DNA from: a virus
IMG/VR virus record: IMGVR_UViG_3300035701_000105
Location: 1-39,659 of that record
Length of the DNA: 39,659 nt
Reading direction: 5' to 3' (one strand)
Made by a program: the position numbers and the translations under genes. Under the pieces are notes generated by a model. The model saw only the letters and a list, made by a program, of their open reading frames with translations, had not been told where the DNA came from and made no database searches. Shown here piece after piece: positions 3,241 through 39,051 of this stretch. Within the stretch, counting starts at the first letter, position 1, and each line of letters begins with the position of its first letter.

Positions 3241-3498
3241 ATGCCTCGATCAATCGAAACCTCGACCGGCCTCAAGTTTTTTAAGACGAGAGCCGAGACC
3301 GGCCAGGTCTACAAACGATGGCGGACCGCGAAAGGATTAACGAAATCGGCTTTCGCCGGCCATCTCGGACTCTCTCCAAACGCCTATTTTTACATTGAGA
3401 GCGGAAAGTATTATCCGAATTACCAAACGATCGCCCTCTCCCGTCAACTCGGGCTCGACGTTTCGGATCTTTTCGATCTCAAGAAAGGCGGGGAATGA
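3241..3498 (+). CDS. XRE/Cro-type helix-turn-helix protein
   Basis: The 85-aa product has a single XRE HTH at about residues 22-72: a helix with WRTAKGLTKSAFAGHLGLS, then NAYFYIESGKYYPN, then LGLDVSDLFDL. The ATG was chosen because GGAAAGGAG lies just upstream; a longer in-frame start inside the nuclease gene has no such site. The stop overlaps the next ATG by 4 bases. It is co-directional with the early operon, and no divergent promoter or repressor/Cro pair is seen. It is more likely a regulator of early genes or of replication than a classical lysogeny switch (inference). Confidence 0.9.
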   Translation: MPRSIETSTGLKFFKTRAETGQVYKRWRTAKGLTKSAFAGHLGLSPNAYFYIESGKYYPNYQTIALSRQLGLDVSDLFDLKKGGE

Positions 3499-4268
3499 GC
3501 ATATTTTTCCCGCATGATAACGACGCGCGGCACGATCCGAGGATCCTTTCTATTGAGCGTCTTTATTCAAACGGATATGCTCTCTTTTTTAAGACCGTCG
3601 AATATATGGATCAAAACGACGGCGAGCTCGAGGTCAATCGTTTCCTTTACAGTAATCTCAAAGATCAGATCAAGGCGAAAGACGAGGACGAGGTCCGGCA
3701 ATTTATTGAGGAATGTCTCTCGGAAGATATCGGCCTTTTTTATACGGCCGAAAAATCCGGACGAAAATTTCTCCGATCGCATCGCCTGGACCGGACGATA
3801 AAGGAGAGGCTCGCGAAATCAAACCAGGCGAGCGAGGCCGCGAGATTACGATGGGAGAGGCAGGGAAATAAGCTCGATCCAAAAAAGAAAGAGAGCAAGA
3901 CGCCGGCGGTCTTTCCGCCGGGATCCGCCGAGGTCCGCCTCGCCCGGCTTTTTTACGACCTGGTCGTAAAGGCGAGCGGGGCGGCGGAGCCGGATTTTCA
4001 AAGATGGGCCGAGGCTTTCGAGAAAATGATCCGCCTGGACAAGAGGGCCCCGGAATATATCGAGGAGACGATCCGGGCGGTCGCGGCTCACGTCGGATCC
4101 GGAGATTTTCGATGGGGAAAGGTCGTAATGTCCCCGGAAAAACTCCGGCTCCGGATCCGCGAGGGAAAGATTAATCCGGATCTCAATAAGAAAGGGGCCT
4201 CGAGGTCCGTCAAGGGCGCGAGCTCGCCGGCGGATTACGACCAGGTCCAGGAGAGGCGGAGATCATGA
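3495..4268 (+). CDS. Replication initiator-like protein with DUF4373 (Lin1244/Lin1753) N-terminus
   Basis: The 257-aa product starts with a DUF4373-type segment (FFPHDNDARHDPRI, then GYALFFKTVEYM, about residues 4-110), a winged-helix domain common in phage replication proteins. A Lys/Glu linker follows at about 115-145. The C-terminal part (about 150-235) is helical and resembles the region by which O/DnaD-like proteins bind DNA or the helicase loader. The gene overlaps the HTH gene by 4 bases and the DnaC-like loader by 4 bases (ATGA), an O-P style pair. It probably recognises the phage origin and recruits the loader; this role comes from family and context. Confidence 0.82.
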   Translation: MSIFFPHDNDARHDPRILSIERLYSNGYALFFKTVEYMDQNDGELEVNRFLYSNLKDQIKAKDEDEVRQFIEECLSEDIGLFYTAEKSGRKFLRSHRLDRTIKERLAKSNQASEAARLRWERQGNKLDPKKKESKTPAVFPPGSAEVRLARLFYDLVVKASGAAEPDFQRWAEAFEKMIRLDKRAPEYIEETIRAVAAHVGSGDFRWGKVVMSPEKLRLRIREGKINPDLNKKGASRSVKGASSPADYDQVQERRRS

Positions 4269-7203: not shown

Positions 7204-7211
7204 CGAAAAAG

Positions 7212-7238
7212 AAAGGGCCGGCGGGGAGCCGGCCCTTT
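7212..7238. terminator. Strong hairpin, possible terminator or RNA processing structure
   Basis: An 11-bp perfect stem (AAAGGGCCGGC at 7212-7222 with its complement at 7228-7238) closes a 5-base loop, 8 bases after a stop codon. No T tract follows on the + strand. An A-rich run precedes it, so the T tract would serve minus-strand transcription. Since nothing convincing is transcribed leftward here, it may be a weak terminator, an RNA stabiliser or a bidirectional element. Confidence 0.6.
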
Positions 7239-7294
7239 GAGGATGCGAAGAAACGGGACGAAATCAAAATAGCTTAATGAAAGGAAAAAATCAA

Positions 7295-8313: not shown

Positions 8314-8544
8314 ATGGTAAACGGGGACAATGGAAAACGGCCGGGGATTTTCAGCGAGACACAGAGGATCCAATTAATCGGAATGAAAATGAAAGAGCTC
8401 GCCGGCTTAATGAATAACGACGAGGCTTTCGCCGGCCGGTTTCCGGTTTCGGATATCGCCGACGCTCGCGGAGCGGTCCGGACGCGGATCGTTACGGTTA
8501 ATTGTCCGAGTCAATTTATCCAACTTGACGGGGTCGGTAATTGA
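8314..8544 (+). CDS. Hypothetical protein (76 aa) upstream of the methyltransferase
   Basis: The 76-aa product has an N-terminal helix region (IQLIGMKMKELAGLM) and a short beta C-terminus. I do not recognise a family. An AAAGGAG site precedes the ATG. The stop TGA overlaps the TTG start of the methyltransferase, so it is probably translationally coupled to that gene. Confidence 0.8.
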   Translation: MVNGDNGKRPGIFSETQRIQLIGMKMKELAGLMNNDEAFAGRFPVSDIADARGAVRTRIVTVNCPSQFIQLDGVGN

Positions 8545-9146
8545 AAAAGTATAAAATCATTTACGCGGATCCCCCCTGGAAATATCGCGACAAGCTCCGG
8601 ACACAAGGCGGCGGAGCGGAGCGAAAATATCCGACGATGATGGTCGAGGAAATCGCGGCTCTCCCTATCTCAAAGCTCGCGGCCGACGACGCGGTCCTCT
8701 TTTTATGGGTTACCTGGCCGCATCTCTTTTCGGCCGAGACCGTTATCCGAGGATGGGGTTTCAAATACAAGACGCTCGGCTTTGTTTGGATTAAGCTCAA
8801 TCAAAAACAAAATCCGGATCAATCCTCGCTCTTTATCGAGAGCCTTTTCGTCGATGATTTTCTCGGGATGGGAACGCTTACAAGGAGCAATTCCGAGGTC
8901 TGTCTCCTCGCGACCAGGGGAAAGCCGGTCCGGGTTTCTCCGGCGGTCCGTCAAACGATATTCTCGCCGGTCCTCGAGCACTCGAGAAAGCCGGACGAGG
9001 TCGGCCGGCGGATCGTCGAGCTCCTCGGTCCGCTCCCTCGCGTCGAGCTTTTCGCGAGGGCCAGGCGTCCAGGATGGGACGTTTTCGGAAACCAGGTCGA
9101 GGGATCTATCCAATTACCGAAAGGGGTATCTCACGGAAAAGAATAA
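8541..9146 (+). CDS. MT-A70-family DNA adenine N6-methyltransferase
   Basis: The 201-aa product has catalytic motif IV DPPW at residues 10-13, close to the N-terminus as in MT-A70 proteins, followed by a Tyr-Arg segment and LFLWVTWPHL. The C-terminal part has ETVIRGWGF, SNSEVCLLATRGK, and the SAM-side motif RVELFARARRPGWDVFGNQ. Phage members methylate adenine in DNA, often to block host restriction. The recognition sequence cannot be read from the protein. The start is TTG in a TTGA overlap with the previous stop; no in-frame ATG gives a full motif IV. Confidence 0.93.
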   Translation: MKKYKIIYADPPWKYRDKLRTQGGGAERKYPTMMVEEIAALPISKLAADDAVLFLWVTWPHLFSAETVIRGWGFKYKTLGFVWIKLNQKQNPDQSSLFIESLFVDDFLGMGTLTRSNSEVCLLATRGKPVRVSPAVRQTIFSPVLEHSRKPDEVGRRIVELLGPLPRVELFARARRPGWDVFGNQVEGSIQLPKGVSHGKE

Positions 9147-12112: not shown

Positions 12113-12694
12113 ATGAGGACACGCGGGACCAAGAAAAAGAAAAGCTCTCAAAAGGTATCAAGGCCGGTGGCCGCTCTGGTCCAGGGCCCCGGCCGGCGGC
12201 GATCCGCGAGCTCCGAGGGGCTCTTTGAGGTCCCGGCTCCGCTCCCTCTCAAGAAAGGCGAGCGGACCGATTGGCATCGAAACCATGAATTGATTTTATA
12301 CGCGACGGCCATTTATATCAAAGAACATTTACGGTTTCCCTCGGCGAGAATAGTCTCCGAGCAAACCGGGCTTTCGCGCGAGGCCGTCGGTAAACATTGG
12401 CGGACTTACGACCAGGAGCGGAGAAAAAAGAAATATCAAATCGCCTTGGACCTGGTCGTCGCGAAAGTCGTACGGGAATATCTCAAGAGCGGGGACGCGA
12501 GAAACGCGGAGCTCTTGTTTAAATACGTCGGTAATTGGAGAGATCCTATTTCCCTTGAGCACTCGGGCCGGGTCGATTTCCGGTCCGCGATGGACAAAGT
12601 CGATGACAGTAAAGACAATGCCGAGCGAGTTAAAGCCTTTGTCAACGTCTTACAACTACAAAACGATCGACGGCAACTTATCGGCCCGAATTGA
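12113..12694 (+). CDS. Terminase small subunit-like protein
   Basis: The 193-aa product has a Lys/Arg/Ser-rich N-terminus and then a helix-turn-helix (FPSARIVSEQTGLSREAVGKHWRTY, about residues 75-105). A helical oligomerisation region follows (DLVVAKVVREYLKSGDARNAELLFKYVGNW). HTH plus helical oligomer layout, and position just before the large subunit, mark it as the DNA-recognition subunit of the packaging motor. ATG at 12113 is preferred; an in-frame TTG at 12077 also exists, and neither has a ribosome binding site. It overlaps the start of the large subunit gene. Confidence 0.8.
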   Translation: MRTRGTKKKKSSQKVSRPVAALVQGPGRRRSASSEGLFEVPAPLPLKKGERTDWHRNHELILYATAIYIKEHLRFPSARIVSEQTGLSREAVGKHWRTYDQERRKKKYQIALDLVVAKVVREYLKSGDARNAELLFKYVGNWRDPISLEHSGRVDFRSAMDKVDDSKDNAERVKAFVNVLQLQNDRRQLIGPN

Positions 12695-14402
12695 CATTAT
12701 CAAACAGGCTCAAAATAATTTCTTATTGCAAAAGGAATTATACGAAAAGAGTCGCGATGACATTTTATTTTTTATTAATTATTTTGTTTGGGTATTTAAT
12801 CCGAAAAAAGAGCCGAGACATTTTCCGTTTAGTCTTTATCCGGTCCAGGAAAAGATCGCCCTCGCTCTCCTCGACGAAATAAAAAACTCTCGCTCCTCGC
12901 TCTCGGAAAAGTCTCGAGAGACCGGGATGACCTTTCTCCATCTCGCCGTCTATCTCCATCAATGGTTGTTTTCAAACGGTTTCGAGGCCCTGGTCGGCTC
13001 GCTCAAGGGAGAGGACGTCGACGATTGGACGCCCTCGAGCTTAATCGGCAAGGTCCGATATATGTATTATCGGCTCCCCTATTGGATCACGCCGTTAAAA
13101 TTTATCCCTCGATTACATGATACATTTCGGAGATTTTTTAATCCGGATAACGGGTCGAGTATTACCGGCCGAGCGACGACCGAGGATTTCGGCCGAGGCG
13201 GTCGAAAGAGCGTCGTCCTCGTCGACGAACACGCCTCGATCGGCTCTCGGATCGTCCAGGGGATGGAGCGAGCTCTCCCCGAGTGCACAAATACGATCCA
13301 TCGCGTCTCGACGCCGAAAGGGATCAACACGTTTAAATTAATCCGCGACCGGAAACTTTGTGATATTCACACAATTCATTGGAGCCAGTTTCCGGATAAG
13401 AGCGAGGGCCTTTATTATATCGACGAAAACGGAAACCGGGTCGATTGTCCGGATCTCCCTCTCGAGGCCCGGTCCCCTTACGGTTATTATATCAAGCGTA
13501 ACGGGAAAATCTCAAAGTATAAACTCCGATCGGCATGGTATGATTTAAAACACAGGGAATATTTAAGCGAGCGGGACCTCGCTCAAGAGCTTGATATCAA
13601 TTACCAGGGCTCCGGGTTTTGTCGTTTCAATGGAGATATGCTCGAGAAAGGATCCGCTCAATGCCTGGACGGCAAACGAGGCTTTCTCGTCCAGGCGGGG
13701 ACGCCGGCGGATCCTGATATCCGTTTCCAGGAAACGCCGCCGGGGGCTCCTTACGAGCTCGAGGTCTGGAAATTTCCGATGCCGGTCCTTTATAATAATC
13801 GCTCTTTTATCGGAGCGGACGTCGCCGAGGGCCTGGTCAAAGGCGATTACTCGTCCGCCGACGTTATCCTCAAGACCGAGGACGGTCTCGCCGGTTTCCT
13901 GGCCGCCTCGTTACACGGCCATTTCGAGCCGGACGTTTTCGCGGATAAGCTCTTTACTCTCGGGATGTGGTTTGATAACGGAGCTCTCCTCGCGGTCGAG
14001 CGTAATAAAGACGGTTTCGGGGTCCTCTTGCGTTTACAAAACGTCCTCGGATATCGCCGGCTTTATACGGAGATGGTCCAGGGGGACGCCGGCGGAGCCA
14101 AGTCGACGGATCGCCTCGGCTTTCTTACGAGCTCGACTAATAAGAAATTTCTCGTAACGGCCGATGTCGACCAGGCTTTAAGGGACGGCGAGCTCCTGGT
14201 CCGCTCTCATGCTCACTATACGGAGATGTCGACCTTTGAAAATTCCGAGGGAAAGCTCGGGGCGACGGGCGAGAATTTCGACGATCGCGTTATATCTCTC
14301 TCGATCGCCTGGCATATCGCGAGACAAGGCGGCCGGCCGACTCTGGTCAAAGGCGGCGGGGCCCGGAGAAAAATAAAAAGATTTGATACGAGTCGTTATT
14401 AA
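12618..14402 (+). CDS. Terminase large subunit (Mu gp28-like)
   Basis: The product is about 594 aa. The ATPase part has the variant Walker A SEKSRETGMT near residue 96-105, typical of Mu gp28-like terminases, Walker B VVLVDEHA at about 199-206, and the coupling motif STPKG near 231-235. The nuclease part has SFIGADVAEG with a catalytic Asp near 401, and a late acidic motif GENFDDRVISL near 550-560. It cuts and pumps phage DNA into proheads. The start is uncertain because the gene overlaps the small subunit; in-frame ATGs at 12555, 12603 and 12618 are possible and none has a clear ribosome site. Confidence 0.93.
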   Translation: MPSELKPLSTSYNYKTIDGNLSARIDIIKQAQNNFLLQKELYEKSRDDILFFINYFVWVFNPKKEPRHFPFSLYPVQEKIALALLDEIKNSRSSLSEKSRETGMTFLHLAVYLHQWLFSNGFEALVGSLKGEDVDDWTPSSLIGKVRYMYYRLPYWITPLKFIPRLHDTFRRFFNPDNGSSITGRATTEDFGRGGRKSVVLVDEHASIGSRIVQGMERALPECTNTIHRVSTPKGINTFKLIRDRKLCDIHTIHWSQFPDKSEGLYYIDENGNRVDCPDLPLEARSPYGYYIKRNGKISKYKLRSAWYDLKHREYLSERDLAQELDINYQGSGFCRFNGDMLEKGSAQCLDGKRGFLVQAGTPADPDIRFQETPPGAPYELEVWKFPMPVLYNNRSFIGADVAEGLVKGDYSSADVILKTEDGLAGFLAASLHGHFEPDVFADKLFTLGMWFDNGALLAVERNKDGFGVLLRLQNVLGYRRLYTEMVQGDAGGAKSTDRLGFLTSSTNKKFLVTADVDQALRDGELLVRSHAHYTEMSTFENSEGKLGATGENFDDRVISLSIAWHIARQGGRPTLVKGGGARRKIKRFDTSRY

Positions 14403-16159: not shown

Positions 16160-17764
16160 ATGCCTTTGCCGGCGACGACCTTTCGGACCGGCCAGGTTTC
16201 GGGACCTCTCAAAGAGGCCCTCTCCTGGTCCCGGTCTAAACAAGTAATGTCAAGGTCGACTTTTGACCAGGTCGATTTTAGAACAAAGCTCGAGAGTTTC
16301 ACGGTCGCCGGCAATCTCACGAATAACGCGATCGCCTCAATTCAGAACAAGGCGATCAATGCAATCGAGGCCGGTCAATCCTATAAAGATTTTACATCCG
16401 CTCTCTCTCCCGAGGTCCTCTCGAATATTACGAGCCCGTCCGTCGTCTATCAAAACGCGATCAATAATGCTTACGGCCGGGCCCGTTTCGAGACTCAAAA
16501 CGATATCCGGGGAGTAAAACCGTTTTTAAAATACGTTACTTTCGGAGACGAAAAGGTCCGGCCAAATCATGCAATTTTAAACGGCCGCGTCGCTCGAGCC
16601 GATGATGATTTCTGGCTCGTCAATTATCCGCCAAACGGCCATAATTGCCGATGCGTCGCTCGAGCCTTAACCGAGGCGGACGTCCGTCGGAAAGGATTAC
16701 AACCTCGGACGATGGCGCAAATTGAGCAAGACGCGGCCAGGGAGCAAGCGGACCAGGGAATCCCGGTCGCGGACCGCGTCCGGCCGCTTGCGGATCCAGG
16801 ATGGCGGGGATCCTTTGAGGTCGGAAAGCCTTTCTCTGACTCATTAATGAAACGACTCGAGAAATATAACGCTCCAGGTTACGAGAGTTTCTTTACTCCG
16901 GATCCGGTCCCTCCGGCCATTTTCAAAGAGCCGCCGGTAATGAAAAAAAACGAGTCTTTCGTCGCGACGACAAAAGGCGATGCGGAGAATTACGCGAGAG
17001 AGAATTTCGGGACCGAGACGATGCGAGTCGACTATACGGGGATCTCGGTCGACTCGATGAACGTCATTAATAAGGCGCTCCTCGAGGTAAAACAAAAATA
17101 TAATTTACAAGAGGTCCGCGTCGTCGAGGCCCGGACGATGAAATCAACATGGGGAGCGTTTGTCCAGGGGAAAGGGCTCTATTTAAACCGCTCCCATTGT
17201 TTCGACGAGGCGGCCGGCCGGAAATTCTTTACGAGCGGATCCGGTCGTTATGCCGAGTCGGCGGTAAAGGCTAATCTTAAAAATGCCGAGGACCGGATCG
17301 TTTTCTTACAAAAGAAACTCGACGAGATAAAAGCCGCAAATCCGGAGACATGGTCAAAATTAACCGAGGCTCAATCAATCCGGAAATATATTAAAGGTTA
17401 CGAGCTCGACATCGTAAAATATTCTAATTGGTGGAAACGGCATAACGTCGGAGACGACTTAAAGGATCTTGTCGTTCACGAAACCGGGCATCTCCTGGTC
17501 AATCAAAAGGCTCCGACGGTCGGAATGTATGGACATTATAAGCGAGTTCCGGAATTTGTTTTCGAGGGGACAAAATTTCAGAAATATGGATTTAAGCGAT
17601 GGATGGTCTCCGACGAGCATCGTCAATTCCGCCGGAAACATCTCTCGGAATATTCTGAAAAAAATTTAAACGAATATATCGCGGAGAGTTTCGCCTCTTA
17701 TGCTCGAGGCGGGGCCGTCCATCCAGAGGTCAAGGAATTTATCGAGGAGATATTAATAAAATGA
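16160..17764 (+). CDS. MuF-type minor head protein fused to an HExxH metallopeptidase-like domain
   Basis: The 534-aa product joins two parts. Residues 1-180 are a Mu gpF/SPP1 gp7 head morphogenesis domain: AGQSYKDF, RARFETQNDIRG, KVRPNHAILNGRVA and the end motif NYPPNGHNCRCVARAL. Residues 280-534 form a second domain with AFVQGKGLYLNRSHCFDEA, a zincin motif VHETGH at 439-444 (His440, Glu441, His444), and NEYIAESFASY where Glu509 could be the third zinc ligand. MuF proteins with C-terminal toxin domains are a known class; this looks like a peptidase member carried in the virion and perhaps injected with DNA. A self-maturation role in the head is the alternative. The stop overlaps the next gene by 4 bases. 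Confidence 0.87.
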   Translation: MPLPATTFRTGQVSGPLKEALSWSRSKQVMSRSTFDQVDFRTKLESFTVAGNLTNNAIASIQNKAINAIEAGQSYKDFTSALSPEVLSNITSPSVVYQNAINNAYGRARFETQNDIRGVKPFLKYVTFGDEKVRPNHAILNGRVARADDDFWLVNYPPNGHNCRCVARALTEADVRRKGLQPRTMAQIEQDAAREQADQGIPVADRVRPLADPGWRGSFEVGKPFSDSLMKRLEKYNAPGYESFFTPDPVPPAIFKEPPVMKKNESFVATTKGDAENYARENFGTETMRVDYTGISVDSMNVINKALLEVKQKYNLQEVRVVEARTMKSTWGAFVQGKGLYLNRSHCFDEAAGRKFFTSGSGRYAESAVKANLKNAEDRIVFLQKKLDEIKAANPETWSKLTEAQSIRKYIKGYELDIVKYSNWWKRHNVGDDLKDLVVHETGHLLVNQKAPTVGMYGHYKRVPEFVFEGTKFQKYGFKRWMVSDEHRQFRRKHLSEYSEKNLNEYIAESFASYARGGAVHPEVKEFIEEILIK

Positions 17765-18441
17765 GCGTCTCTTTACAATGCCTTAATTGTCTTTTATACC
17801 AGGACCTCGAGAGCGATAAAAAAGGTTTCCCGGTTTGCGATGCTTTCCCGGCCGGGATCCCGCCGGAGATACTCGACGGCGTACACGATCACTTATTTCA
17901 TTTTGTCGGAGACAATGGGATCGTCCGGGTCCCGATCCGTTACGGGAGCGGGGGATCGGTCCATATTGTAACGCCCGAGGCGGAGCGAAAGGCGGTCGAC
18001 GAGCCGCTCAATCTTTCGGCGGTCCGCGACGACTCAATCAAAGCGGTTTTTGATTACCTGGTCGACTACCAGGCTCGGCGGAAAGCGATCCCGATCGCCC
18101 CGAAAGACTCGAGCGATTTCGGAGATTGGAATTACTATACGATCGCCGGCGGCCGGCGGATCATCGTTACTCGCGAGCTCACTCGGCGGATCAATTACGT
18201 CGTTACGGGGCTCAAAAATCCGGTAATGGTTTTTCGCGACGTCCAGGCTCAAAAGACGACCGGCCAGAAATATACGGTCGAATTTTTTATCGCCCGTTTT
18301 CTGGACCAGGGGGGGTTATATTTTGCAAACGTCCGCGTCGTTTCGGACGTCGCTCACGCGGTTTTTATCGCCCGGACCGAGGCCGAGCTCCCCGGCATTT
18401 TGAAAGAAATCTCGGGCGTTGAGATTTTTAGAGATTTTTAA
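17761..18441 (+). CDS. Cys-motif protein overlapping the MuF-peptidase gene; possible partner
   Basis: The 226-aa product begins with CLNCLLYQ (Cys7, Cys10) and PVCDAFPAGIPPEILDG with Cys26, then DH at 43-44. This CxxC...CDAFPxGIP pattern recurs in small proteins near MuF-type genes of other mobile elements. The rest (100-226) is an alpha/beta domain I do not recognise, with a segment like a barwin or MuF-associated fold (KNPVMVFRDVQAQKTTGQKYTVEFFIARF). The ATGA overlap with the upstream peptidase fusion suggests that the two are made together. It could be an immunity protein or chaperone for the peptidase domain; that is inference. Confidence 0.78.
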   Translation: MSVSLQCLNCLLYQDLESDKKGFPVCDAFPAGIPPEILDGVHDHLFHFVGDNGIVRVPIRYGSGGSVHIVTPEAERKAVDEPLNLSAVRDDSIKAVFDYLVDYQARRKAIPIAPKDSSDFGDWNYYTIAGGRRIIVTRELTRRINYVVTGLKNPVMVFRDVQAQKTTGQKYTVEFFIARFLDQGGLYFANVRVVSDVAHAVFIARTEAELPGILKEISGVEIFRDF

Positions 18442-18467
18442 AAAAGGAGCGAGATGCGGTCGAAATG

Positions 18468-18481
18468 CGTCCGCAATGCGG
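18468..18481. repeat. 14-base direct repeat, copy 1
   Basis: The word CGTCCGCAATGCGG occurs here and again at 18645-18658. It contains a short CCGC-AAT-GCGG inverted repeat. Two copies flanking the poly-G hairpins may be binding sites for a regulator. Confidence 0.6.
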
Positions 18482-18516
18482 GATCCGGAGCGTCCGGATC
18501 CGAGGGCCTCGAGGCC

Positions 18517-18566
18517 ATTTCGGAGGGGGGGGGTCCGAAATTTCGGAGGGGGGGTCCGAAATTTCG
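18517..18566. repeat. Tandem inverted repeats with G9 and G7 loops
   Basis: TTTCGGA, nine G, TCCGAAA (18518-18540) is followed at once by TTTCGGA, seven G, TCCGAAA (18541-18561). The second stem extends to 12 bp (18536-18547 with 18555-18566). The loops are pure G. No T tract follows, so this is not a normal intrinsic terminator. Confidence 0.8.
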
Positions 18567-18644
18567 AGGAGAGACAAGGGGCCTTTAATTATTATGAAAA
18601 ATGTTTTATAACCCATTGAAAAGATCGGAAGCTCCGAAAATATC

Positions 18645-18658
18645 CGTCCGCAATGCGG
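18645..18658. repeat. 14-base direct repeat, copy 2
   Basis: Second exact copy of CGTCCGCAATGCGG, 164 bases after the first poly-G-side copy at 18468-18481. Confidence 0.6.
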
Positions 18659-18690
18659 CCGCAATACGCCGGCTTTGCGTCCGTTATGCT

Positions 18691-18718
18691 AAACAAACAA
18701 ACAAACAAACAAACAAAC
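18691..18718. repeat. (AAAC)7 simple sequence repeat
   Basis: Seven uninterrupted AAAC units lie about 97 bases upstream of the protease/scaffold ATG. Such runs change length by strand slippage, so spacing between upstream elements and the promoter could vary. It does not lie in a gene. Confidence 0.85.
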
Positions 18719-18780
18719 ATAGATCCCCCATCTCGGGTCCGATATCGCAATTTCTCGAAATATTTTTAGTTGGTAATTAT

Positions 18781-18788
18781 TATAAAAT
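18781..18788 (+). promoter_or_regulatory. Candidate -10 element before the head protease gene
   Basis: TATAAAAT lies in an AT-rich stretch after the non-coding region and before AAGAAAGGAG and the ATG at 18816. No good -35 box is seen at the proper distance, so if real the promoter may need an activator. Confidence 0.3.
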
Positions 18789-18815
18789 AATTGTAATTTA
18801 AGAAAGGAGATAACG

Positions 18816-20147
18816 ATGCCCTACACAAACGAACACGCGGCCAGGCTACACGATCCGGACGGTTACGAGCGTTTCCGCCGGATGATAAACCAGGGCGGAG
18901 CCGGGATCGACTTTATCATCGGCTTTAAACGCGGCGGCGGATCCGAGGTCCAGGCGATCCGGTTTGCAAAATCAAAATTTACGGCGGCCGAGGCGAAAAA
19001 ATGGCTCGCCGATCACGATCACAAGGCGATCTCTTTCGAGCCGGCGGCCGAGGGCTCGAATAACTCCGAGCTCGATTTCGAGGCCGTCTCTCCGGACCTG
19101 GCTCAAGGGTCCGCGATCGAGGGCGAGGTCGAAATCGCGGTCGCGGGAAAATATCCTCAAGGCGATTTGACGCCGGAGATATTCGACGAGCTCGTCGCGA
19201 CGTTTAATCCGGCCGTACATGAACCGCCTCACGTTATCGGCCATATAACGCCGGAACATAACGACCGGCCGGCTTACGGATGGATCGCGGGGCTCCGTCG
19301 TGTCGGCGACCGGCTCCTCGCGAAATCGAAACAGATCGCGAAAGATCTCGACGACCTGGTCCGCTCCGGACGTTTTAAGAAAAGGTCGATCGGGATCCGG
19401 GTCCTCGAGGACGGGCGGAGATACTTGCACCATCTCGCCTGGCTCGGCTCAATGGTCCCGGCTTGCAAGGGATTGAAAGACGTTTATCTTGATTACCTCG
19501 ACGCCGGGCGTCAAGAGGATTTCGAGATAGAAATTGATAACTCAAATTCAAACAAAGGAGATCTCTCGATGAAAACTTACACAGAGGAAGAAATGAGAAA
19601 CGAGACCGCTCGGATCGAGCGGGAGACTCGCGACAAGGTCAAGGCCGAGCTCGAGACCGATTTCGCGGATCGCCTCAAGACGGCGGAGACGGCGGCCAGG
19701 GCCGACGAGCGGAAAAAGGTCGAAAAGGAATTTTCGGACGCCTCGGTCGAAACGACCAGGGCGGCCAATTATCGCCGGGACGTCGACTCGCTCCTCAAGA
19801 AAGCGATCGACGAAAAGAAAATCGTTTCCGCTCAAGTCGAGCCTCTCCGGGCGATCTTGTACGCGATGGACAAGACGGCCGAGCTCGTCTATTCCGAGGG
19901 CGAGGGCGACAAGAAAGTCGAGCGCAAGGAAAAGGCCCTCGACGCGGCAAAGAGGATCATCGAAAGCTATACGGATAAGCTCGGCGGTAACGTCGAAGAT
20001 CCCGCAAATGCCGGGGCCAGGGGCGGCCAGGATGCCAATTACGCCGAGGACAAGGCGGCGGCCTGGAAACTCTCGAAAGACGAGGGGATCACTTTCGGCC
20101 AGGCTTTGAAAAAGGTCCAGGCGAAACGCGCGGGCGCGAGCAAGTAA
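18816..20147 (+). CDS. Head maturation protease-scaffold fusion (Mu I-like)
   Basis: The 443-aa product has an N-terminal small domain (FKRGGGSEVQAIRFAKSKFT, about 37-70) and a protease domain (84-235) with HVIGHITPEHNDRPAYGW and GRFKKRSIGIRV; His143 and Ser191 are plausible catalytic residues. A charged, helical scaffold part follows from 252 to the end. Phage proteases of this kind cut the scaffold from the prohead. The ATG follows AAGAAAGGAG. An internal ribosome site and ATG at 19569 divide the two parts (separate entry). Decoration protein and major capsid follow, the usual order. Confidence 0.85.
   Translation: MPYTNEHAARLHDPDGYERFRRMINQGGAGIDFIIGFKRGGGSEVQAIRFAKSKFTAAEAKKWLADHDHKAISFEPAAEGSNNSELDFEAVSPDLAQGSAIEGEVEIAVAGKYPQGDLTPEIFDELVATFNPAVHEPPHVIGHITPEHNDRPAYGWIAGLRRVGDRLLAKSKQIAKDLDDLVRSGRFKKRSIGIRVLEDGRRYLHHLAWLGSMVPACKGLKDVYLDYLDAGRQEDFEIEIDNSNSNKGDLSMKTYTEEEMRNETARIERETRDKVKAELETDFADRLKTAETAARADERKKVEKEFSDASVETTRAANYRRDVDSLLKKAIDEKKIVSAQVEPLRAILYAMDKTAELVYSEGEGDKKVERKEKALDAAKRIIESYTDKLGGNVEDPANAGARGGQDANYAEDKAAAWKLSKDEGITFGQALKKVQAKRAGASK
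19569..20147 (+). CDS. Nested in-frame scaffold protein (internal start)
   Basis: Within the protease-scaffold gene, AAAGGAG at 19554-19560 stands 8 bases before an in-frame ATG at 19569 (residue 252). This would yield a 192-aa protein that is highly charged, helical (RIERETRDKVKAELETD...) and ends in a basic patch, as scaffold proteins do. The same nested layout is known for lambda C/Nu3 and Mu I/Z. That the start lies exactly at the boundary between the protease and scaffold parts supports real use. Confidence 0.75.
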   Translation: MKTYTEEEMRNETARIERETRDKVKAELETDFADRLKTAETAARADERKKVEKEFSDASVETTRAANYRRDVDSLLKKAIDEKKIVSAQVEPLRAILYAMDKTAELVYSEGEGDKKVERKEKALDAAKRIIESYTDKLGGNVEDPANAGARGGQDANYAEDKAAAWKLSKDEGITFGQALKKVQAKRAGASK

Positions 20148-38669: not shown

Positions 38670-38836
38670 TGAAAAAACTTTTCAAGTCGCGCACATTTTG
38701 GGGCGGCCTCGTTTACGCCGTTACCGTCGTCCTCGAGAGCGTCGGAGTAATCGACAACGCGACGGCCGAAACGATAAAGACCGTCGGCGTCGGCGTCGGT
38801 TTATGGGGAGCCAGAAACGCGAGGCCGGCTCAATAG
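38669..38836 (+). CDS. Small membrane protein after endolysin (holin candidate, 55 aa)
   Basis: A 55-codon ORF starts in a TAATG overlap with the endolysin; GGGGGAG precedes it. The peptide has basic N-terminal residues (MKKLFKSRTF), one hydrophobic segment (about 11-30), then a Gly/Val-rich segment (KTVGVGVGLWGARN). Size and place fit a small holin or lysis accessory. It ends with TAG, before a strong terminator. Confidence 0.7.
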   Translation: MKKLFKSRTFWGGLVYAVTVVLESVGVIDNATAETIKTVGVGVGLWGARNARPAQ

Positions 38837-38862
38837 CTTGAAAAATCCGTTTCATTTCAATT

Positions 38863-38890
38863 AAGGCCGGCCAGGTCGCCGGCCTTTTTT
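38863..38890 (+). terminator. Strong intrinsic terminator at the end of the late operon
   Basis: AAGGCCGGC (38863-38871) pairs perfectly with GCCGGCCTT (38878-38886) around a 6-base loop, and a run of six T begins within the stem end (38885-38890). It separates late transcription from the early promoter. Confidence 0.92.
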
Positions 38891-38972
38891 GTATCTCGAG
38901 AGCCTCAAGATTCGCGAAATTTAAGCGAAAAACGGCTTTAAAAACATCTTTCATTATAATTAATTATTTTTG

Positions 38973-39000
38973 TTGACAAATATTTCGTTATAAATATACC
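38973..39000 (+). promoter_or_regulatory. Early promoter, sigma70-like
   Basis: A perfect TTGACA (38973-38978) is followed after 16 bases by TATACC (38995-39000) in AT-rich DNA; TATAAT at 38955-38960 may be a second -10. This is the most promoter-like site in the genome. It stands in the only gap between the late terminator and the first early gene (ATG at 39052). Confidence 0.7.
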
Positions 39001-39051
39001 TTTGATAATGAGATGCCGGAGAAACCGAAACCTTAAACCGAAAGGGGGACG

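Follow-up and report, generated by a model that had tools for sequence, protein, structure and literature searches.

An uncultured phage carries, between its MuF pair and its protease operon, two adjacent hairpins whose loops consist purely of G, and the question they raise is whether such a structure serves as a control signal shared with related phages or came about in a more ordinary way. The window, i.e., the whole stretch of DNA that was analysed, is a 39,659-base IMG/VR virus record with a Mu-type head module, whose genes encode a terminase, portal, MuF, protease, scaffold-like protein, major head protein, adaptors, and tail sheath; its early region also carries a gene for an MT-A70-type adenine methyltransferase (8541-9146). 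The large terminase gene lies about 4 kb upstream of the hairpins, which are found in a gap that is the longest within the structural gene block and, with the window ends excluded, the second-longest between called genes in the window, behind 38670-39051 (382 nt). An earlier note on this DNA had described loops of nine and seven G and a second stem of 12 bp at this place, and its coordinates, stems, loops, and placement between the MuF pair and the protease operon all proved correct (Table 1).

Table 1. Positions of the hairpins, the surrounding repeats, and the genes and sites discussed in the text (window coordinates unless marked).
Feature	Position	Strand	Details
Tandem repeat forming both G-loop hairpins	18517-18566	+	2.3 copies; unit ATTTCGGA-G7/9-TCCGAA
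Hairpin 1	18517-18541	+	8-bp stem ATTTCGGA (18517-18524)/TCCGAAAT (18534-18541); loop G9 (18525-18533)
Hairpin 2	18536-18566	+	12-bp stem CGAAATTTCGGA (18536-18547)/TCCGAAATTTCG (18555-18566); loop G7 (18548-18554)
Possible 44-codon ORF enclosing the hairpins	18454-18588	+	AAGGAG at 18444-18449, spacing 4
Nine other AAGGAG sites	protease; 19569 (within protease frame); 20219; 20658 (major head protein); 23599 (sheath); 31188; 37489; 8314; 4938		
Gap between gene 17761-18441 and head protease	18442-18815		374 nt; comparable gap 77 nt in L016, 45 nt in L015
CCGCAATGCGG, left copy	18471-18481		11-nt odd palindrome within 11-bp repeats
Palindrome GGATCCGGA-gcg-TCCGGATCC	18481-18501		5' of the hairpins
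Perfect palindrome GGCCTCGAGGCC	18505-18516		abuts hairpin 1 upstream; read from the sequence
CCGCAATGCGG, right copy	18648-18658		177 bp from left copy
(AAAC)7 microsatellite	18691-18719		inside the gap
AT-rich stretch	18755-18815	+	weak promoter-like match, no better than shuffles; protease ribosome-binding site
Gene after MuF	17761-18441	+	in L016, each half corresponds to a reading frame of its own
Head maturation protease	18816-20147	+	phrog_976, E 9e-39
Large terminase gene	12555-14402		
Replication-initiator-like Lin1244_N gene	3495-4268		
255-aa gene of G001	L025 3668-4435	-	no Pfam family match

The architecture of the sequence itself is that of a tandem repeat. Positions 18517-18566 read ATTTCGGA-G9-TCCGAA, then ATTTCGGA-G7-TCCGAA, then ATTTCG, i.e., head-to-tail near-identical units differing by small indels, and TRF reported the stretch as one tandem repeat with a unit of 21-23 bp, 93% matches, and 6% indels, which correspond to the two additional G in the first run. 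The joint between units, TCCGAAATTTCGGA, is itself palindromic, with the right arm TCCGAA abutting the next left arm ATTTCGGA, and the incomplete third copy supplies the rest of the second stem, which reaches its 12 bp because the duplication joins TCCGAA to ATTTCGG. Since the length of hairpin 2 follows from the duplication, the two hairpins are not independent evidence; what is present is one hairpin, duplicated. The two full stems also share bases 18536-18541 and thus cannot both form completely. A poly-G sequencing artefact is an unlikely source of this arrangement, as trailing false G would not yield a stem-G-stem order.

Hairpins with homopolymer loops (loop of at least 5, stem of at least 6) numbered two in the window, as compared to a mean of 0.1 and a maximum of 1 in 60 dinucleotide shuffles of it, and there was one stem of at least 12 bp with a loop of 3-10 against a mean of 0.05 in dinucleotide shuffles. 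Long G runs by themselves were not in excess (5 runs of at least seven G, with 7.0 expected). No loops made of G or C runs (at least 6) on stems of at least 5 were present in 428 kb of other fetched loci. The hairpin exceeds chance expectation, and it does so as one hairpin.

The remainder of the gap is also rich in repeats. CCGCAATGCGG has exactly two exact copies in the window, which flank the hairpins and possibly form an operator pair, and several degenerate 11-bp repeats surround them. The clustering of simple repeats in the gap suggests that the region may be slippage-prone. At its far end, the AT-rich stretch is where the start of the protease operon would be expected by position. We considered an insertion with target duplication on account of TTTAARAAAGGAG, found at 18437 and 18797, and set it aside as weak, AAAGGAG being common at the gene starts of this phage. 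A replication origin in the gap was likewise considered, for the 11-bp repeats, the AT-rich DNA, and the initiator-like gene that one relative carries in this slot, and was rejected because the Lin1244_N gene, with 10-bp repeats of its own, is the likelier origin. Those repeats, at 3914-3939 within the gene, are a possible phage replication origin. The positions of the initiator-like and terminase genes do not point to the packaging or replication signal that had been suggested for the hairpins. As a separate observation, the gap at 7204-7276 holds an 11-bp stem, AAAGGGCCGGC/GCCGGCCCTTT, with the loop GGGGA (7212-7238).

Relatives were found by portal, protease, and head-protein searches of IMG/VR, and three of them reach the locus: L010/L016 (one record), L015, and G001/L013/L025, with 35-58% protein identity over the head genes (44-47% for the L016 protease and 35-37% for that of L015, as amino acid identity to the window). 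Hairpins and G runs are absent from the comparable gaps of L016 and L015, and in G001 a non-homologous gene sits ahead of the protease, following the gene after MuF; it encodes a 255-aa protein which, by eye, resembles a replication initiator. A lack of stem conservation, which the earlier note had named as refuting its reading, is thus what the two relatives with a directly comparable gap show, G001 having unrelated sequence there, and no stems kept by paired changes in relatives were found at the hairpins. Judging from these comparisons, the hairpins are most likely not a conserved or shared control signal.

In IMG/VR as a whole, neither the exact pattern TTTCGGA-G6-N0-6-TCCGAAA nor the repeat junction had a match, and the idea of a dispersed element was dropped, there being no copies in IMG/VR. 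A looser hairpin pattern matched 29 genome loci once each (about 17 matches are expected by chance on a rough uniform-base estimate), but in none of them did a pure-G loop exceed 5; GGGGGGC in L047 came nearest. About a dozen of these matches are terminator-like hairpins, mainly from Clostridia, and most of the others have mixed loops. At the DNA level, relatives of the gap in phages and plasmids were limited to weak matches, mostly to the AT-rich half (best E 0.002), and the IMG/VR protein scans and one of the genome collection returned 29-62% identity or nothing, i.e., no close relatives. The same comparisons yielded an observation on the protease, whose N-terminus (window 18816-19060; the first 80-100 residues, MPYTNEHAARL...FEPA) has 47-62% identity to the N-termini of otherwise different proteins. 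The matches are in L004-L007 and in proteins of Synechococcus S-CBS1/3 and Roseobacter CRP phages that carry a major capsid protein annotation. The segment is missing from the G001 protease, has no Pfam family, and gives the impression of a mobile N-terminal module.

We consider it probable, at roughly 0.6, that the hairpins are a tandem duplication made by slippage in a variable slot and have no conserved function. One small palindrome with a central G run would have been duplicated in tandem, recently, and the duplication together with the unequal G lengths (9 and 7) would fit replication slippage. The slot, in this phage group the place where the gene after MuF gives way to the protease operon, would be a fast-changing one between two head-gene groups, and the repeat possibly falls in the latter half of a short orphan frame. 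At most, the hairpins would contribute some local RNA structure where the upstream transcript ends. We counted in favor of this duplication the 2.3-copy repeat with its G-run indels, the (AAAC)7 and degenerate 11-bp repeats in the same gap, the relatives' gaps without hairpins, the lack of an IMG/VR copy, of a T-tract, and of an Rfam match, and an SD-ATG-ORF with coding-like codons. Against taking the locus as a duplication only, we counted that the three relatives are so distant that non-coding signals can turn over, that the structure lies above shuffles and homopolymer-loop hairpins exceed chance, and that a phage which retains 374 nt of non-conserved DNA might be making use of it.

Alternatively, the hairpins might serve as an RNA structure at an operon boundary, protecting or defining the 3' end of the portal-MuF transcript or insulating it from the protease operon about 250 nt downstream. 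Their position between two gene groups agrees with this, as does the predicted RNA fold of 18480-18600, which at -51.9 kcal/mol is more stable than that of shuffles (z -3.15), mostly because of the second stem and the nearby palindromes. In all three relatives (L015, L016, L025), the corresponding gap contains promoter-like hexamers (TTGACA/TTGACA/TTGCCG-N17-CATTTT/TATTTT/TAAATT) that stop 8-9 nt short of the protease ATG, so that the messages would be nearly leaderless; the scan was post hoc and had no shuffle control and is thus a lead only. The window has only weak promoter matches at the corresponding protease site. Phage Mu has four late promoters that depend on C, and the I promoter is among them (PMC4461284). 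The hairpins, however, do not recur in the relatives' comparable gaps, and an intrinsic (Rho-independent) terminator was rejected: the stem is followed by AGGAGAGACAAGG with no T tract, and the terminator scan reported nothing at the hairpins. No Rfam family matches them, and no tRNA does either. We regard such a boundary role as unlikely. Of the earlier proposal that the hairpins control late gene expression, the link to the locus stays plausible given the relatives' promoter-like sequence, but the hairpins themselves are neither conserved nor followed by a T-tract; the locus may be regulatory, though not through the hairpins.

The earlier note had taken the hairpins as non-coding and did not consider the possible ORF that runs over them. 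This frame starts 12 nt past the upstream gene's stop codon and crosses both hairpins, and a ribosome-binding motif precedes it. The arrangement AAGGAG-N3-9-ATG occurs at 10 sites on the plus strand and none on the minus strand, with 0.7 expected per strand in shuffles, and 9 of the 10 sites precede plausible gene-sized frame starts. One of the nine, a strong AAGGAG-N8-ATG inside the protease frame (19569-20147), suggests an internal start for a scaffold protein, scaffold-type starts being the analogy. The codon score of the possible ORF is 0.28 bits per codon in frame and 0.02 and -0.03 in the other two frames, where 44-codon reference windows give 0.43 (sd 0.19) for genes and -0.06 (sd 0.16) off-frame. 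We put its translation at about even odds.

A translated ORF also fits the duplication explanation, and the stronger claim would be that coding is the purpose of the repeat, i.e., that the array lies in a translated 44-aa peptide (repeat GGPKFR) whose C-terminus is altered by G-run slippage, as in contingency loci. All three frames are indeed open, and a first G run of 7 to 11 would give peptides of 44-55 aa. Nevertheless, no frame ends early, so slippage would not be an on/off switch; the spacing of 4 differs from the 6 or 8 at the other nine sites, the ORF has no homologue, its codon score is just about 2 sd above off-frame, and the repeat is known from one record. We find a coding repeat rather improbable.

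A G-quadruplex, which the earlier note had also raised, is possible on paper. The hairpin region is the record's top G4Hunter window (1.76), and once quadruplexes are allowed, ViennaRNA places a two-tetrad quadruplex within the first G run next to the 12-bp hairpin, giving 18517-18566 an energy of -33.4 rather than -16.1 kcal/mol, although two-tetrad energies are poorly calibrated. With the two G runs 14 nt apart, however, the canonical motif (four G tracts of at least 3, loops of 1-7) does not span both, a quadruplex could form here only in a two-tetrad form or with one long loop, and the sequence is not conserved. We think a quadruplex or quadruplex-hairpin switch, in DNA or RNA, highly improbable, and that the paired hairpins form a slippage-tunable one balancing the portal-MuF and protease-capsid operons seems more far-fetched still.

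With the alternatives weighed, we judge the feature to be ordinary, a slippage-prone repeat in a variable slot. It carries the caution that a striking hairpin pair can be a single duplicated palindrome in a variable spacer, and any follow-up of the locus would best turn to the possible small ORF and to the promoter-like sequence that the relatives have ahead of the protease.

Among known structures, clostridial hairpins of the form AAAGtC-TTTCGGA-GGGGGAT-TCCGAAA-GaCTTT, which look like bidirectional terminators, have the 7-bp core stem and a G-rich loop in common with the hairpins described here. The clostridial stems extend outward through AAAGtC/GaCTTT into A/T-rich flanks, some with a T run, whereas those of the window do not, and the window's hairpins are in tandem and have pure G loops. 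The likeness to the Mu late promoter PI is one of position, namely that in a Mu-type head module a late start falls at the protease gene (gene I in Mu), but no C-like activator or site was identified here, and PI does not include the hairpins. Long G runs, possibly within a reading frame, are shared with phase-variable poly-G contingency loci, as exemplified by Campylobacter; in contrast to them, slippage here would truncate no frame, and the G lengths come from one record. Simple-sequence tandem repeats are also found in phage genomes, as described for mycobacteriophages (PMC6426759). The repeat described here resembles these in its short head-to-tail units and homopolymer runs and differs from them in that its unit is palindromic, so that the repeat reads as hairpins too.
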